Shown in pieces: positions 1,709 to 6,284 of a stretch of 6,284 bases of DNA. The position numbers and the translations under genes are program-made. The stretch lies in contig CAILKC010000503.1 in NCBI GenBank assembly GCA_903834675.1, positions 1 through 6,284 on the forward strand, in the 5' to 3' direction. The notes beneath the pieces were generated by a model that made no database searches, was not told where the DNA came from, and was given only the letters and a program-made list of their open reading frames with translations. Numbering within the stretch: the first letter of the stretch is position 1; each line of letters opens with the position of its first letter. This DNA comes from an uncultured Victivallales bacterium (GTDB lineage Bacteria; Verrucomicrobiota; Lentisphaeria; Oligosphaerales; JAFGRS01).

Positions 1709-2140
1709 ATGTTGGCGAGAGTGGATTACTTGGAGTCAGGAAGGCGCCATTTCGACGACGGCCTGCGCTTGGCGGCCGCATGCCGCCTGCCCAACGCCGG
1801 GCAGTTGTTCGGGTTGTCCGCCGAGTGTGGAGTCAAGGGTCTTCTCGTGGCGCTGGGACACCAGACTGAATCGGACGGAGGTCTGGGTAAAGGCCCCTTG
1901 CGGAAGCACGTGAACCAGTTGCACGCTGCGTCTGCGGACTTGAGCGTGTTCTTGACTGGAAGGAACGCGGGGCGCTATTGGGCGATGTTGCCGAGCTTGG
2001 CGAACTTCGTCGACTGGAGCGTGGACCAGCGGTATTACGGGACTGCCGGGATTCCGCAGTCGCACGCGAACTGGCAGGCAGCCGCCCGCGAAGTCCAGGA
2101 GATGCTGCAGCAAGCCCAACTCGACGGGGTGGTGGCATGA
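1709..2140 (+). CDS. HEPN-like helical protein, first gene of the three-gene operon
   Basis: This is a 143-aa, mostly helical soluble protein with no signal peptide or membrane segment. Its layout resembles the HEPN family (PF05168-like). A first helix (13-26) is followed by a second with the family's A-E-x-x-x-K pattern (SAECGVKGLLVAL, 37-49). Then come a glycine-rich loop, an LRKHVNQLH segment (64-72) like the usual 'HdL..L' stretch, an R-Y pair (108-109), and a long C-terminal helix (118-137). HEPN domains act as RNases, as antitoxin-bound toxins, or as non-catalytic partners of nucleotidyltransferases. The canonical RNxxxH is absent; R65-x6-H72 is the only Rx4-6H-type pair. The start was chosen for the GGAGG at 1699. 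The gene overlaps the next by ATGA, so it is probably translated in a coupled way. The HEPN call rests on pattern only. Another four-helix bundle is possible. Confidence 0.6.
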   Translation: MLARVDYLESGRRHFDDGLRLAAACRLPNAGQLFGLSAECGVKGLLVALGHQTESDGGLGKGPLRKHVNQLHAASADLSVFLTGRNAGRYWAMLPSLANFVDWSVDQRYYGTAGIPQSHANWQAAAREVQEMLQQAQLDGVVA

Positions 2141-3459
2141 CAACGAGACCAGTCTTGTTCGCCGATGTGCTCCCTGCCGCCATCGTCGCCCTAGACCGTG
2201 CTGGGGTCGCCCGGGGCGATGCGGTGCTTGTCCGGGATCTTTCAGGCCGCATACGGGCGGCCCTTGATCTCGAACGCAAGGATGCGGATGCTTCCCGCAT
2301 GCAGAGGCTGGATGAGGATCTCGGGCTTCTCGGAGCTTACTCGGAAACCCGCGGCGCACGGATTCTGTTCCGGGGCGATCTTTTGGACCCAGATATCGTC
2401 TTTAGGAACCCGGGCATTCAGGAAGTGGCGCCCCCTGAGTACAGCGGCGAGCCCGTGCGGCTCCTGGACCGGCAGCTTGTCGGTGAGGACTGGTTGCGCA
2501 CGGGAGTCAGTAGCGACATTCCCCGGCTAGTCTTCTACGGGTTCAAGGGCGGCGTCGGACGGTCGACTGCGGTCGCGGTGGCGGCTTACCATCTGGCAAG
2601 CAAAGGCAAGCGCGTTCTGCTGCTTGATCTCGATCTCGAATCTCCTGGGCTCTCGGCTCTGGTTCTGCCTCAGGACAGTCGCGCCGACTTCGGGTTGGTG
2701 GACTGGCTTGTGGAGGATGCGGTCGAGCAGGGCGACCTTATTCTGCCTCGGCTCGTGGCATCCAGCCCCATGGGGCAGGAGACGCCGGGCGCCATCCGCG
2801 TGGTCTCGGCCGTCGGTGGCAACACCGACCCGACGACCTACTTGGCCAAGTTGGCTCGGGCCTACGCAGACGTGGGGCGGCCTGGGCGAGTGGACCGATT
2901 CGCAGAACGTCTGGCGCGGCTGGTGACGGCACTCGAGGCCGAGGAAAAGCCCGACGTCGTGCTCATCGACAGCCGCGCCGGACTCCATGACCTGGCTGCA
3001 ATCAGTGTCGTCGGCCTCTCCACGATGGCCTACCTCTTTGCCACCGGCTCACCGCAGAGCTGGCAAGGCTACCGGCTGCTCTTCTCGCACTGGCGCTCCT
3101 ACCCGCGGGCGCTGGTCGCCATTCGTGACCGCCTGACCATGGTCCACGCGCTGTTCCCTGAGACAGACCAGGTGGCGCGGGCTCAGCGCTTTCGGGAGGA
3201 CTCATGCAACCTGTTTGCCGATACTGTCTATGAGACCGCCGCGCCCGGTGCCGGTCCCGGTGATGACGTGTTCAACTTTGATCCCAACGACGAGTCCGCT
3301 CCGCACTGGCCAGTGCGGGTTCTCTGGAACAGCAGGTTCCAGGAGTTCGACCCGATGACCCGTGACCGCGGGATACTGACCGAGGCTTTGACCAACGCGA
3401 CGTTCGGTGAGCTCCTGGAGCGCATCACGGACGAGGTGGAGAGTTCCCGCCATGAGTAG
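2137..3459 (+). CDS. KGGVGR-variant ParA/MinD-like AAA ATPase
   Basis: The 440-aa protein has two parts. Residues 1-130 form an N-terminal domain with a conserved-looking 'LLDRQLVGEDWL' lead-in (109-120). Residues 131-440 form a SIMIBI-type (ParA/MinD) NTPase. The P-loop is FKGGVGRST (136-144). It keeps the deviant-Walker lysine K137 but has Arg at the usual GKT lysine (R142). LLLDLDLESPGL (161-172) is the A' region and VVLIDSRAGLHD (274-285) the Walker B/switch region with D278. These hallmarks match what is annotated as 'KGGVGR-motif variant AAA ATPase', a family I know from predicted conflict contexts but not with an established reaction. It probably dimerises on ATP and acts as a switch. 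The ATG at 2137 overlaps the HEPN stop (ATGA). A longer in-frame reading from 1978 would run through the HEPN gene and is rejected. It overlaps the next gene by 8 nt. Confidence 0.9.
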   Translation: MTTRPVLFADVLPAAIVALDRAGVARGDAVLVRDLSGRIRAALDLERKDADASRMQRLDEDLGLLGAYSETRGARILFRGDLLDPDIVFRNPGIQEVAPPEYSGEPVRLLDRQLVGEDWLRTGVSSDIPRLVFYGFKGGVGRSTAVAVAAYHLASKGKRVLLLDLDLESPGLSALVLPQDSRADFGLVDWLVEDAVEQGDLILPRLVASSPMGQETPGAIRVVSAVGGNTDPTTYLAKLARAYADVGRPGRVDRFAERLARLVTALEAEEKPDVVLIDSRAGLHDLAAISVVGLSTMAYLFATGSPQSWQGYRLLFSHWRSYPRALVAIRDRLTMVHALFPETDQVARAQRFREDSCNLFADTVYETAAPGAGPGDDVFNFDPNDESAPHWPVRVLWNSRFQEFDPMTRDRGILTEALTNATFGELLERITDEVESSRHE

Positions 3460-4906
3460 TCCATTCCCCCGAGATGCTCTGCGCGCGGCGCTTCGGAAGT
3501 CCCTGCCAGGCATCGATCCAGAATCGGCTGCAGGCAGTCGCATCCCCTTCACTTACGTTCCGCCCAGCCATGCACGGGCGATCGAGCCCGACAGCGTGTT
3601 GGTGGAAGGGATCCGTGGTGCGGGAAAGAGCTTCTGGTGGAACGCGCTCAAAGACGATGCACACCGACGGTTTGTTGTCTCTGCGTTCCCCGAGACTCGT
3701 CTTCGCCCTGGCACCGAGATCGGGGCCGGCTATGGCCTGGCGTCGGACTCGCGGTTTCCGGCGAAGGACGTCATCACCAAACTGGTCGCCGAGCATGATC
3801 CCAGGCACGTCTGGAAGGCCGTTGTCGCTACGAACCTGGGCTTCGGAGAAGTGGATACGGCTGCGACCACCTGGGAAGCGCGAACCCAGTGGGTACGCGG
3901 CCATGCCGAGGACTACGAAGCCCTGCTTGCCCAGGCCGACAGGCGGCTCTTGCAGGAGGGAAGGAATTGCATCATCCTGTTCGATGCCCTCGACCGTCTA
4001 GCGGCAGACTGGAGTACCTTGCGCCCCATCGCGAAGGCGTTGTTCCAGGTGGCTCTCGACGTGCGCAGTTGCAGGGCTATCCGCCTCAAGCTCTTTGTGC
4101 GGCCTGACATGATCGAGGACCGCGAGATCATCGGGTTCCCTGATGCGTCGAAGCTACTGGGGCAGAAGGTGTCGCTGACCTGGAGGAGGGCCGACCTCTA
4201 TGCCCTGGTGTTTCAGTGTACCGGCAATGACCCCGAGCACGGTGCGGTTTTTCGCGATCAGTGTGACCGCGAGTTCGGAAGCCACTGGACGCAGGATCCA
4301 GGTGGCGAGGCGTGGGTCCTGCCGAAATCGCTGAGGGCAGACGAGGATCTCCAGAAATGCGTGTTCCATGCACTGGCCGGCCCGACTATGGCCTCAGGCC
4401 CAAGCGGGCACAAGCGAGGGTTCCCCTTTACCTGGTTACCCAACCATCTCGCCGACGGCCGCGAGCAGGTTAGCCCCCGCAGCTTCTGTTCAGCTCTCCG
4501 GGCTGCAGCAGAGCACGATCAGCCCGACGGGTGGCCCTTCGCACTCCACTACAGAGGGCTCCAGGTCGGCGTCCAGAAGGCATCGCAGATTCGCGTGGAC
4601 GAAGTGTGTGAGGATCTGCCCTGGGTCCGCGACGCTATGACGCCCCTGAGGCAACTCGTGGTCCCTTGCCCCCAGGAGGACGTGATCGGGCGCTGGGAAA
4701 GCGAAGGCACCGCGAAAAGACTGCGGGGACAGAATCTCGACAAGCTTCCGCCTCAGCACCTCGACGACGGCCCACGAGGTCTACTGCAAGACCTCCAGTT
4801 CATCTCTCTCGTCGACATTCTCGGCGACGGCCGGGTCCAGATGCCGGACGTGTACCGCATAGCGTTTGGGCTCGGGCGGAGGGGCGGAGTGAAGCCAGTG
4901 CGTTGA
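3452..4906 (+). CDS. P-loop ATPase, third gene of the KGGVGR operon
   Basis: This is a 484-aa soluble protein. The Walker A is GIRGAGKS (53-60) after a hydrophobic strand (SVLVE). A Walker B-like CIILFDALDRL (173-183) has acidic D178 and D181. A following strand, RLKLFVRPDM (211-220), places an Arg (R217) where STAND and AAA ATPases carry sensor or finger residues. The stretch RGFPFTWLPNHLADG...SPRSFCSAL (322-349) reads like a family signature. The C-terminal 130 residues are acidic and helical, with no recognised nuclease, TIR or protease motif. The start at ATG 3452 overlaps the previous stop by 8 nt and has GGAG (3438-3441) upstream. The in-frame GTG-type start at 3407 lies deep in the upstream gene and is less likely. 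The likely role is an ATP-driven sensor or remodeller paired with the KGGVGR ATPase. No substrate can be inferred. Confidence 0.8.
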   Translation: MSSPFPRDALRAALRKSLPGIDPESAAGSRIPFTYVPPSHARAIEPDSVLVEGIRGAGKSFWWNALKDDAHRRFVVSAFPETRLRPGTEIGAGYGLASDSRFPAKDVITKLVAEHDPRHVWKAVVATNLGFGEVDTAATTWEARTQWVRGHAEDYEALLAQADRRLLQEGRNCIILFDALDRLAADWSTLRPIAKALFQVALDVRSCRAIRLKLFVRPDMIEDREIIGFPDASKLLGQKVSLTWRRADLYALVFQCTGNDPEHGAVFRDQCDREFGSHWTQDPGGEAWVLPKSLRADEDLQKCVFHALAGPTMASGPSGHKRGFPFTWLPNHLADGREQVSPRSFCSALRAAAEHDQPDGWPFALHYRGLQVGVQKASQIRVDEVCEDLPWVRDAMTPLRQLVVPCPQEDVIGRWESEGTAKRLRGQNLDKLPPQHLDDGPRGLLQDLQFISLVDILGDGRVQMPDVYRIAFGLGRRGGVKPVR

Positions 4907-5063
4907 CGGGACGACTCGGACTGAGCGTGGCGGTATGGCTCGCTGCCGTGGCGGCCTGCGCCGACAACGTGGTGCCGACGTTACTCACCGCGCCGCGTCG
5001 CGCCGTGGTATGGGCCTGAGTGAGCGCCGTTGTGACAACAGCATGCCGTCCGCCGTTCCCCAT

Positions 5064-5093
5064 GATGTGGTGCCGTGATGATGTGCTGCCGTG
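5064..5093. repeat. Two imperfect 14-bp direct repeats with 16-bp period
   Basis: GATGTGGTGCCGTG (5064-5077) recurs as GATGTGCTGCCGTG (5080-5093), with one mismatch. Function is unknown. It could be a short binding-site pair or a slippage product. Confidence 0.6.
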
Positions 5094-5318
5094 TGCACTC
5101 AAACCCCTGGCATAGATTGGGTACCGGCCGTTCCTATGAGTGCAGCCATGCACATAAGAGAGTTTCCTGCCGCGGTTTCCGGCAGTCAGGTGCGACCGGC
5201 TGGGGCTGATTGGCGAGGACATCGGGCGGCTGGAGCATGCGGGGACGCTGCCTGCGGCGCCGCGGTTGCGGCGGGCTGACCGTGTCAACGCAGGATTGGC
5301 GGGTACAAAGCGGCGTCA

Positions 5319-5368
5319 TGCCCTTCGACAGGCTCAGGGCCTTGAGCAAGCGAAGCGCGTCGAAATGG
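5319..5368. repeat. REP-like palindromic element (CCCTTCGACAGGCTCAGGGC type)
   Basis: Outer arms TTCGAC (5324-5329) and GTCGAA (5359-5364) enclose an inner stem GCTCA/TGAGC (5332-5336, 5343-5347). The motif CCCTTCGACAGGCTCAGGGC is, from memory, a widely dispersed extragenic palindrome in environmental bacterial genomes. It interrupts every open frame of the spacer with repeat-derived peptide, which argues against coding here. Confidence 0.7.
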
Positions 5369-5385
5369 CCGCCGGCACTCCAAAG

Positions 5386-5419
5386 CTCGGCATGCCGGCC
5401 GGCGCGGTAACACGCCGAG
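5386..5419. repeat. Nested palindrome with a GCCGGCCGGC core
   Basis: CTCGGC (5386-5391) pairs with GCCGAG (5414-5419) around a perfect 10-bp palindrome, GCCGGCCGGC (5394-5403). It lies 17 nt after the preceding REP-like element and may belong to the same composite repeat. Confidence 0.55.
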
Positions 5420-5457
5420 ACCCGGCAAGAGCGGGACTTTTTGTACCGCGGCGGCTG

Positions 5458-5493
5458 ACCGACCAAGTAACCGATCAAGTAACCGACCAAGTA
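5458..5493. repeat. Three tandem copies of a 12-bp unit, ACCGAYCAAGTA
   Basis: The units are at 5458-5469, 5470-5481 and 5482-5493. They differ at a single site (GAC/GAT/GAC). In one plus-strand frame each unit reads Thr-Asp-Gln-Val and the variation is synonymous. The run ends eight nucleotides before the Fic-fragment ATG. Confidence 0.85.
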
Positions 5494-5501
5494 GGGTGAG
5501 T

Positions 5502-5699
5502 ATGGCGAGCAGAAGCCGCCGGTACACGACGCCGCAAGGGGCTGAGGCCGAGTTCGAGCCGGGGTCGCAGGGGCGCGTTCTGAGGAACCTGTGTGGGATC
5601 ATCCGCAAACGCGAGATGGACAAGGCCGAGTATGAGGCCTCGGGACTACGCCCGCTTGGCGGGCTTCTTCGCCGCGGCAATGCGGGTGCGGGTAGATGA
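5502..5699 (+). pseudogene. N-terminal fragment of a Fic-family protein
   Basis: The first 46 residues match the N-terminus of Fic-family proteins as I remember them: a basic RRYTTPQGAEAEFEPGS lead, GRVLRNLCGI (24-33), then RKREMDKAEYEA (35-46). In intact relatives this continues into the Fic domain with its HPFxxGNGR active site, which transfers AMP or other nucleotide groups to proteins. Here similarity stops at about 5639. The frame then runs through the opposite-strand gene's 3' end to a TGA at 5697, adding a Gly/Arg-rich tail. No Fic motif follows in any frame before the right edge, so the enzyme core is missing. GTG 5496 is an alternative start two codons upstream, with a purine-rich GGGTGAG stretch before ATG 5502. 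I read this as a deletion remnant. An independent small regulator is less likely. Confidence 0.65.
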
Positions 5700-5840
5700 G
5701 GAGCGGGCCCCGTGAGGCGCACGGGTACTCGGAAGGTGGGCGCCCTCGAACACCGAGGAGTCGCGGGCGTTCTCCTCCAGAAGCCTGGCGCGCCGGGCGG
5801 GAGACCGCAGGTAGGCGTTGGTCTGGATGAGTGAAGGCAT
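5646..5840 (-). CDS. Small protein with a Fic-inhibitory-like SxxxEG motif (possible antitoxin)
   Basis: This is a 64-aa basic protein beginning MPSLIQTNAYLRSPARRARL and containing LLEENARDSSVFEGA (20-34). It ends in a Lys/Ala/Pro-rich tail. I recall short proteins with the pattern N-x-YLRDP..RR..LLEENARxSSVFEGA in other genomes, usually unnamed. SSVFEG fits the [S/T]xxxE[G/N] signature of helices that block the ATP site of Fic enzymes. With a Fic stub converging from the other strand, an antitoxin role is plausible but inferred. Opposite-strand placement differs from the usual same-operon order. The start could be ATG 5840 or an in-frame ATG at 5861; neither has a strong ribosome site. A much longer frame reaching 6188 crosses the hairpin cluster and is rejected. 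Its stop overlaps a GC hairpin (5650-5664). Confidence 0.5.
   Translation of the reverse strand: MPSLIQTNAYLRSPARRARLLEENARDSSVFEGAHLPSTRAPHGARSSSTRTRIAAAKKPAKRA
5650..5669. terminator. GC-rich hairpin at the convergent gene ends
   Basis: GCCCGC (5650-5655) pairs with GCGGGC (5659-5664) over a 3-nt loop and is followed on the plus strand by TTCTT. It lies where the Fic fragment and the minus-strand gene converge. The T-tract is poor, so terminator activity is uncertain. Confidence 0.35.
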
Positions 5841-5925
5841 GCTGGAAGATAGCACTTGCATGGCGACGATCAACCGCCGTAGGCCGGGGCTGGTCTGGCT
5901 GGCGGGTTTGCGAAGGGCGGATTGG

Positions 5926-6076
5926 CGGGCGCGCTTGTCGTCGAGTCGCGCGCCCGTACTGTGGGCCATTCCGGGCCAGCCGGAACGGGCTGGCCCGCAT
6001 GGAGGGCGTGGGCTGTGCCCCCGCCGCGGCGCTCGCGCAGGAGCGCCCTCCAACGCCCTTTGCGTCGCGCAGGGCG
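5926..6076. repeat. Cluster of four consecutive GC-rich inverted repeats
   Basis: Stems are CGGGCGCGC/GCGCGCCCG (5926-5934, 5948-5956), CGGGCCAGCC/GGCTGGCCCG (5972-5981, 5988-5997) and GGAGGGCG/CGCCCTCC (6001-6008, 6044-6051). A fourth, bulged stem CGCCC-TT-TGCG/CGCA-GGGCG spans 6054-6076. Almost the whole 150 bp can fold. It lies between the divergent minus-strand small gene and the right-edge gene, where both promoters would be expected. No gene is supported inside it. Confidence 0.7.
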
Positions 6077-6146
6077 GAACAAGACGGGTACTGGGTGAGG
6101 TGGCGATGTCACACGCGGCGGTATGTTCGTGGAGACGGACAGGACG

Positions 6147-6284
6147 ATGAAGCGCAGCAAGGCAGCAGAGATCACGTTCAGGGATCACTCCTTCGAGGAG
6201 TGTGTCCGCCTGGATCCGGACCTGGCCGCCACGCGGGCGGAGTACGCGAAGAAGTCCGCCAAGAGGCGGCGCCAGGCGGCGGAG
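6147..6284 (+). CDS. Unrecognised small charged protein, cut by the right edge
   Basis: Only 46 residues are visible. The sequence is soluble and highly charged, with a segment FRDHSFEECVRLDPDLAATR (11-30) and a Lys/Arg-rich run (AKKSAKRRRQ, 34-43). I do not recognise a family. The 'F-x-E...DP' spacing loosely recalls N-termini of small antitoxins, but this is weak. The ATG at 6147 follows AGGA at close spacing, with GGAG at 6131-6134. An in-frame ATG at 6123 would add eight residues. Lack of an in-frame stop and typical GC codon use support coding. It is separated from the minus-strand small gene by the hairpin cluster and transcribed away from it. Confidence 0.4.
   Translation, partial: MKRSKAAEITFRDHSFEECVRLDPDLAATRAEYAKKSAKRRRQAAE

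Follow-up and report, generated by a model that had tools for sequence, protein, structure and literature searches.

Three co-directional genes (A, B and C) in the 6284-base stretch of DNA analysed here (the window, from an uncultured Victivallales bacterium) are, by sequence match, a member of PDC-M28, a candidate defence system catalogued in PADLOC-DB. Each product matches its PDC-M28 counterpart over most of its length, and the genes are adjacent and in the order A-B-C; window and catalogued system thus share the same three components in the same order, with no difference among the features tested. From this match and the evidence below we infer, with middling confidence, both a defence role and a mechanism: an abortive-infection type module in which B and C gate A. 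A preliminary description, made from the letters and the open reading frames, had proposed an uncharacterised three-gene system at 1709-4906 and allowed that it might be catalogued; catalogued it is, and so not undescribed. The gene layout that it gave is confirmed here from the open reading frames of the window:

1709 to 2140, + strand: gene A (PDC-M28A), predicted HEPN-fold protein, 143 amino acids, ATG start (PADLOC 6.3e-35)
2137 to 3459, + strand: gene B (PDC-M28B), KGGVGR-type ParA/MinD-like ATPase, 440 amino acids, ATG start (PADLOC 3.4e-133, NF047398 2e-56)
3452 to 4906, + strand: gene C (PDC-M28C), predicted STAND/ORC-like AAA+ ATPase, 484 amino acids, ATG start (PADLOC 1e-162, and fold matches)

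A and B overlap by 4 nucleotides (ATGA) and B and C by 8. With these scores the three proteins count as members of conserved families, far above chance. Profiles of the three proteins were then used to examine 49 loci, namely the window, 14 loci on plasmids (L030 to L043, from the 20 plasmid records with a C match) and 34 whole-genome loci (L074 to L107) taken from the phyla to which a Myxococcales metagenome-assembled genome and Aeromonas piscicola belong. These 34 are the stronger and near full-length ones of 68 C-match places, and weak, partial or split C matches (e.g. G543:C201, G032:C76) lie outside them. The order A-B-C was found in 42 of the 49 (matches to the three profiles being accepted at E≤1e-3, and L074, where A is partial, and L096, where A is in two frames, being counted). 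The preliminary description had named as grounds against itself a failure of the three genes to recur together, or a match to a described non-defence pathway; they do recur together, and no such pathway was found.

Plasmids were searched in both directions. B was present in 14 of the 20 records with C, the remaining six being Streptomyces or Kitasatospora, and C was present in 14 of the 17 records with a B match, the other three matching just 41-52% of B; every plasmid B that matched over at least two thirds of its length had C (14/14). In protein searches, 41 of the 120 listed C clusters matched one of 120 listed B clusters in the exact length of the longest contig, against a chance level, with lengths jittered by up to 5%, of 1.3 on average and 5 at most. 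A, B and C distances are correlated over 42 loci (Pearson 0.73-0.88, with 0/500 permutations as high), which proves no interaction because inheritance of the three genes as a block would have the same effect. In the two phyla, 13 of 377 genomes of one and 18 of 398 of the other have C at E<1e-50 (19 and 26, respectively, at E≤0.001), and the unit is therefore patchy. C had no match in 14 control genomes or in 50,697 phage records, the A profile gave 12 pattern matches on viral contigs, none of them a relative, and a search of E. coli genomes for near matches to the Enterobacter triad DNA found none. A profile scan of genome contigs with B alone gave two loci, in one of which (L002) the match is only 44 residues long. 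We conclude that A, B and C are co-conserved genes that travel together as a compact mobile unit.

The surroundings of the triad support a tie to defence systems, since it lies inside BREX-2 in three plasmids and beside a DISARM-type methyltransferase in the window. Within the BREX-2 operons the triad has the same direction as the operon and occupies two different slots, between pglX and a pglY-like gene in the plasmids of two proteobacteria, Thiodictyon and Sphaerotilus (pglY-like is our label; the annotations are phage resistance protein and DUF6079 protein) and between pglW and pglX in the Streptomyces plasmid. BREX-2 PglZ was matched by 6 of 72,556 plasmid records (tblastn E≤1e-5), and three of these six carry the triad, where the expected overlap with the 14 triad records is 0.0012 (hypergeometric 1e-10); the records cannot be treated as independent, and one of the three triad plasmids supplied the PglZ query. 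In the window itself the neighbour is the following:

2 to 1423, + strand: upstream gene, its 5' part lying beyond the window; encodes the 473 C-terminal residues of a DrmMI methyltransferase (DISARM type)

The product matches PADLOC DrmMI at 1.1e-132, type IIG methyltransferase models more weakly, and PF20466 MmeI_TRD at 8.1e-10, which bears out the modification-type methyltransferase seen earlier. DISARM comprises drmA, drmB, drmC and a methyltransferase; of these the window, which starts inside the methyltransferase gene, shows the C-terminal part of DrmMI.

With three B. glumae records taken as one, 5 of the 12 distinct triads on plasmids have an integrase (tyrosine-type or site-specific) beside or near A, and several of the integrase-flanked triads are without BREX. 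Triad copies on plasmids and beside integrases would also suit a toxin-antitoxin or addiction unit, with A as toxin, B as ATPase antitoxin and C as accessory, that stabilises plasmids or islands and defends only as a by-product. Such a unit has a precedent in the dyad of a MAE_18760-family HEPN and ParA/Soj recorded in 2013, where, as in A-B, the HEPN gene adjoins that of a ParA-like ATPase, and where an ATPase antitoxin was proposed (PMC3710099). Yet that HEPN family is listed there with the Rx4-6H motif, missing from A, and the passages on the dyad mention no third ATPase, whereas C accompanies B in all 14 of the plasmid cases with a long B match. The BREX-2 insertion and a DS-8-like fusion of C described below also point towards defence, and we consider the addiction unit unlikely.

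Other genes were seen around plasmid triads. At one integrase-flanked triad a gene for DUF6650, a domain newly linked to defence (PMC13092281), adjoins the integrase. On an Enterobacter plasmid (L031), a gene for a TIR-domain protein (11799-12602) faces the triad, with a tyrosine recombinase on the opposite side.

Window A has no Pfam or NCBIfam match, and a PDB sequence search with its family found none. Among the 32 family members (window included), 8 match PF05168 HEPN and 13 match PF18728 HEPN_AbiV (counted at E up to 1; the best is 5e-5), and the predicted fold of A matches HEPN structures, the nearest being 2hsb/AF0298. By this modelled helical fold A belongs to the HEPN superfamily, as the preliminary description had guessed. 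The residues that stand out are these:

1823 to 1837, + strand: E39-x3-K43 of A, helix 2 (E in 32/32 rows, K in 31/32)
1907 to 1909, + strand: H67 of A, putative alternative His (kept in 32/32 rows)
2030 to 2035, + strand: R108-Y109 of A, with Arg at the HEPN-motif place and without the His of Rx4-6H (R and Y in 32/32 rows)

Rx4-6H can be read from the R108-equivalent Arg in 3 of the 32 rows and is absent at R108 of window A, which by its sequence does not carry the canonical RNase motif. For HEPN domains of the AbiV/AF0298 type (PDB 2hsb), a different site has been described: the motif Arg is kept and its His lost, another conserved His stands between helices 2 and 3, and helix 2 has Ex3[KR] (PMC3710099). 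A fits this description, as judged by residue conservation rather than spatial closeness, and appears to keep a conserved alternative RNase-type site, with nuclease activity as a prediction only. Should A prove to cut RNA, the alternative His predicted in 2013 for AbiV/AF0298-type HEPNs (PMC3710099) would be borne out. The missing His could also be taken to mean that A is a non-catalytic scaffold, C (with, in fusions, its metallophosphatase-NACHT part, below) being what acts and B positioning the complex in the manner of a partition ATPase; HEPN domains that lack conserved polar residues are indeed regarded as nucleic-acid binders (PMC3710099). Unlike such degenerate HEPNs, however, A retains a set of polar residues (R13, H14, E39, K43, H67, R108 and Y109), each conserved in 31 or more of the 32 rows, and the scaffold seems to us improbable. 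A pairing of the MNT-HEPN kind was considered and rejected, A, B and C including no nucleotidyltransferase.

The assignment of B as the KGGVGR ParA-like ATPase of the preliminary description holds, with 191.3 bits on the KGGVGR ATPase family NF047398 (NCBIfam cutoff 90) and the motif at residues 137-142:

2545 to 2562, + strand: KGGVGR P-loop of B (Arg in 41/41 rows with a letter there)

In an alignment of 42 B proteins, of which 41 cover the P-loop, KGGVGR is invariant at its Lys, Gly residues and Arg, and V is replaced once by A; D164, D166, D278, R280 and G282 are likewise fixed. B has this Arg instead of the P-loop Lys of the ParA/MinD signature KGGxGK[ST], and it appears to keep a ParA-like scaffold without that Lys. 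MinD/ParA-like domains of other conflict systems, which may or may not belong to the subfamily of B, have been predicted to be inactive (PMC7159879). The ParA/MinD likeness of B might suggest a housekeeping function such as segregation, which we hold to be very improbable: presence is patchy, the contexts are mobile, and there is no ParB-like partner inside the triad (no search for a ParB or MinE partner or a partition site was made). A plain partition system was rejected on the deviant P-loop of B and the embedding of the triad in BREX.

C is the second P-loop ATPase, as had been described, with both Walker motifs (residue numbers for C were counted from 3449, with one extra Ala, and are one too high):

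3608 to 3631, + strand: Walker A of C, GIRGAGKS (G54, G57, G59 and K60 invariant in 41 rows)
3983 to 3994, + strand: Walker B of C, LFDALD, with D179-x-x-D182 (D179 invariant, D182 in at least 90% of 41 rows)

The predicted model of C (predicted local distance difference test score 90.4) matched Cdc6/ORC and the BREX protein BrxC in Foldseek, and 2qen, 2fna, CED-4, Cdc6 and plant NLRs in VIA-align. Identity to the STAND/ORC-Cdc6 ATPases and BrxC is 9-15%, with root-mean-square deviations above 4.5 and Foldseek template-modelling scores of 0.26-0.36 among the 12 matches below E 0.001. C thus has Walker A and B motifs within an ORC/STAND fold, and on the model it is of the same ATPase class as these proteins, not their close kin. 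A C-terminal repeat sensor of the STAND kind is not apparent in the 484-residue model, the C-terminal part of which was not folded or searched separately. Membership of C in the Sll1717 P-loop ATPases was rejected, its NF047389 score of 35.7 bits lying below the cutoff of 75.

A tie of C to phage defence that is independent of gene neighbourhood comes from its fusions. At five loci in four genomes of one phylum, C forms the first ~485 residues of proteins of 1328-1790 amino acids that continue with a calcineurin-like phosphoesterase and then a NACHT NTPase:

L097, 10606-15975: C-metallophosphatase-NACHT fusion
L098, 5381-10702: C-metallophosphatase-NACHT fusion
L099, 10156-14139: C-metallophosphatase-NACHT fusion
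L100, 5945-10219: C-metallophosphatase-NACHT fusion
L101, 7515-12587: C-metallophosphatase-NACHT fusion

The motifs DLH[FL] and GNHD are present in these fusions. The extension of L097, the sole fusion scanned with NCBIfam, matches the anti-phage phosphatases DS-9 (6.8e-28) and DS-8 (3e-11), with scores well short of the equivalog cutoffs for the whole proteins, and PADLOC gave weak PDC-S60 and effector-endonuclease matches to the L097, L099 and L101 fusions. DS-8 is a validated metallophosphatase-NACHT defence protein in which mutating either domain abolishes defence (PMC13092281). The C extensions share the metallophosphatase and NACHT pair with DS-8, and the fusions look like enlarged versions of it, but DS-8 is a single-protein system, unlike the triad, and C of the window is without such an extension. 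In addition, B and C are naturally fused at L107 (9294-12038, 915 amino acids), with A separate and upstream. These fusions support the view that B and C act jointly and that C can be linked to effectors of this kind.

The reading of the triad as a defence module therefore draws on the PDC-M28 match, the co-conservation, the BREX-2 embedding, the integrases, the DS-8-like and B-C fusions and the HEPN fold. On this reading C would be the sensor ATPase, B a relay or latch and A the effector: C and B would form a nucleotide-gated sensor that keeps A silent at rest, a phage signal, possibly the inhibition of an adjacent BREX or DISARM system, would shift the nucleotide state of C and B, and A, once freed, would cut RNA so that the cell or the phage is stopped. 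In the metallophosphatase-NACHT fusions of C, this core would have acquired an additional effector. A more specific version, possible but doubtful in our view, is that PDC-M28 is a guard module, in which C as STAND/ORC sensor and B as Arg-P-loop relay watch over BREX-2 or DISARM and fire an AbiV-type HEPN RNase when these are blocked; it would then be a plug-in platform, with C also wired to a DS-8-like effector, rather than a fixed toxin pair. With its parts identified, the set becomes testable for the nuclease, antitoxin and scaffold readings.

Several results weigh against the defence module. First, C stands without A and B at six of the loci (L039, L041 and L043, all Streptomyces plasmid loci; L085, where a 34-residue B-like piece 6 kb off was not counted; L092; and L100, a C fusion with neither A nor B), and at L078 B is cut and A missing. 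Second, B may hydrolyse ATP poorly or not at all, and A may not be an RNase, Rx4-6H being missing in 29 of 32 rows. Third, searches with BREX-2 queries gave no match around 33 of the 34 whole-genome loci (up to ~10 kb per side), and the one remaining locus, L088, gave a partial helicase match.

Fourth, the flanks of 10 contigs show no clear excess of defence genes. Genes were called crudely as longest open reading frames, with a PADLOC threshold of 1e-10; the near set held 95 of 130 called genes (midpoint at most 6 kb from the triad) and the controls 74 of 121, with midpoints intended to lie in the first 12 kb, although two long genes were omitted (L111 2-7711 and L114 9768-13829) and four L111 genes beyond 12 kb were included. 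Between 2 and 10 of the 95 near genes were PADLOC-positive, a range that reflects unresolved overlaps (three RtcR/CARF models with 2 members each, mad2 2, mad3 1, mad8 1), against 1 to 2 of the 74 controls (mad3 1, PDC-M51A 1); the excess is unclear because the matches are regulators and mad-type models. The enrichment near defence genes that the preliminary description had looked for is thus strong for BREX-2 on plasmids (3/6 PglZ records) but not clear in the 10 matched contigs, and overall its observation is confirmed and its interpretation partly supported.

The BREX and DISARM contexts raise a further possibility, that the triad is a regulator or backup acting solely alongside a modification-based system. 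The embedding in BREX-2, the DrmMI gene adjoining the triad in the window and the presence of BrxC among the fold matches of C would all fit such an accessory, but the single partial BREX-2 match among the 34 whole-genome loci does not, nor do the several plasmid triads that adjoin an integrase without BREX, and we think it rather unlikely.

C also occurs without B at the Streptomyces plasmid loci L039, L041, L043, L118 and L119, where it is an orphan C branch. At L092 a gene for an Abi_alpha protein (PF14337 5e-32) lies at 5373-6200, upstream of C, a possible partner exchange.

PDC-M28 is named in a defence catalogue, yet is without a mechanism in the literature that we searched: neither PDC-M28 nor KGGVGR occurs in the main texts (supplements not covered), and no PDC-M28 function was found there. 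PDC systems have been termed unpublished or mostly unvalidated candidates (PMC11811056, PMC12988326), and the second of these sources, citing Payne and others (preprint, 2024), traces the candidates to 'guilt by embedding' and states that most of them lack validation by experiment. Pgl operons that contain HEPN genes from other families had already been recorded in 2013 (PMC3710099), and a BREX survey of 2026 names stand-alone HEPN genes as one kind of BREX backup effector (PMC12839542), its text containing none of ParA, Soj, MinD or SIMIBI as whole words. Our contribution is to read A as a HEPN with an alternative site and C as a STAND/ORC ATPase, to report the fusions of C to metallophosphatase-NACHT and to B, and to count how often the triad is embedded in BREX-2 on plasmids; some of it may already stand in the PDC source preprint.

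Elsewhere in the window, the Rfam search (gathering score) and the tRNA scan gave no match, and promoter and terminator scans were at chance level. The longest open reading frame in 4907-6284 is at most 212 amino acids. A further open frame of 46 amino acids begins at 6147 and is cut by the window end (6147-6284), with no Pfam match. Downstream of the operon, at 5458-5493, stand three tandem 12-nucleotide copies (ACCGACCAAGTA, one altered).

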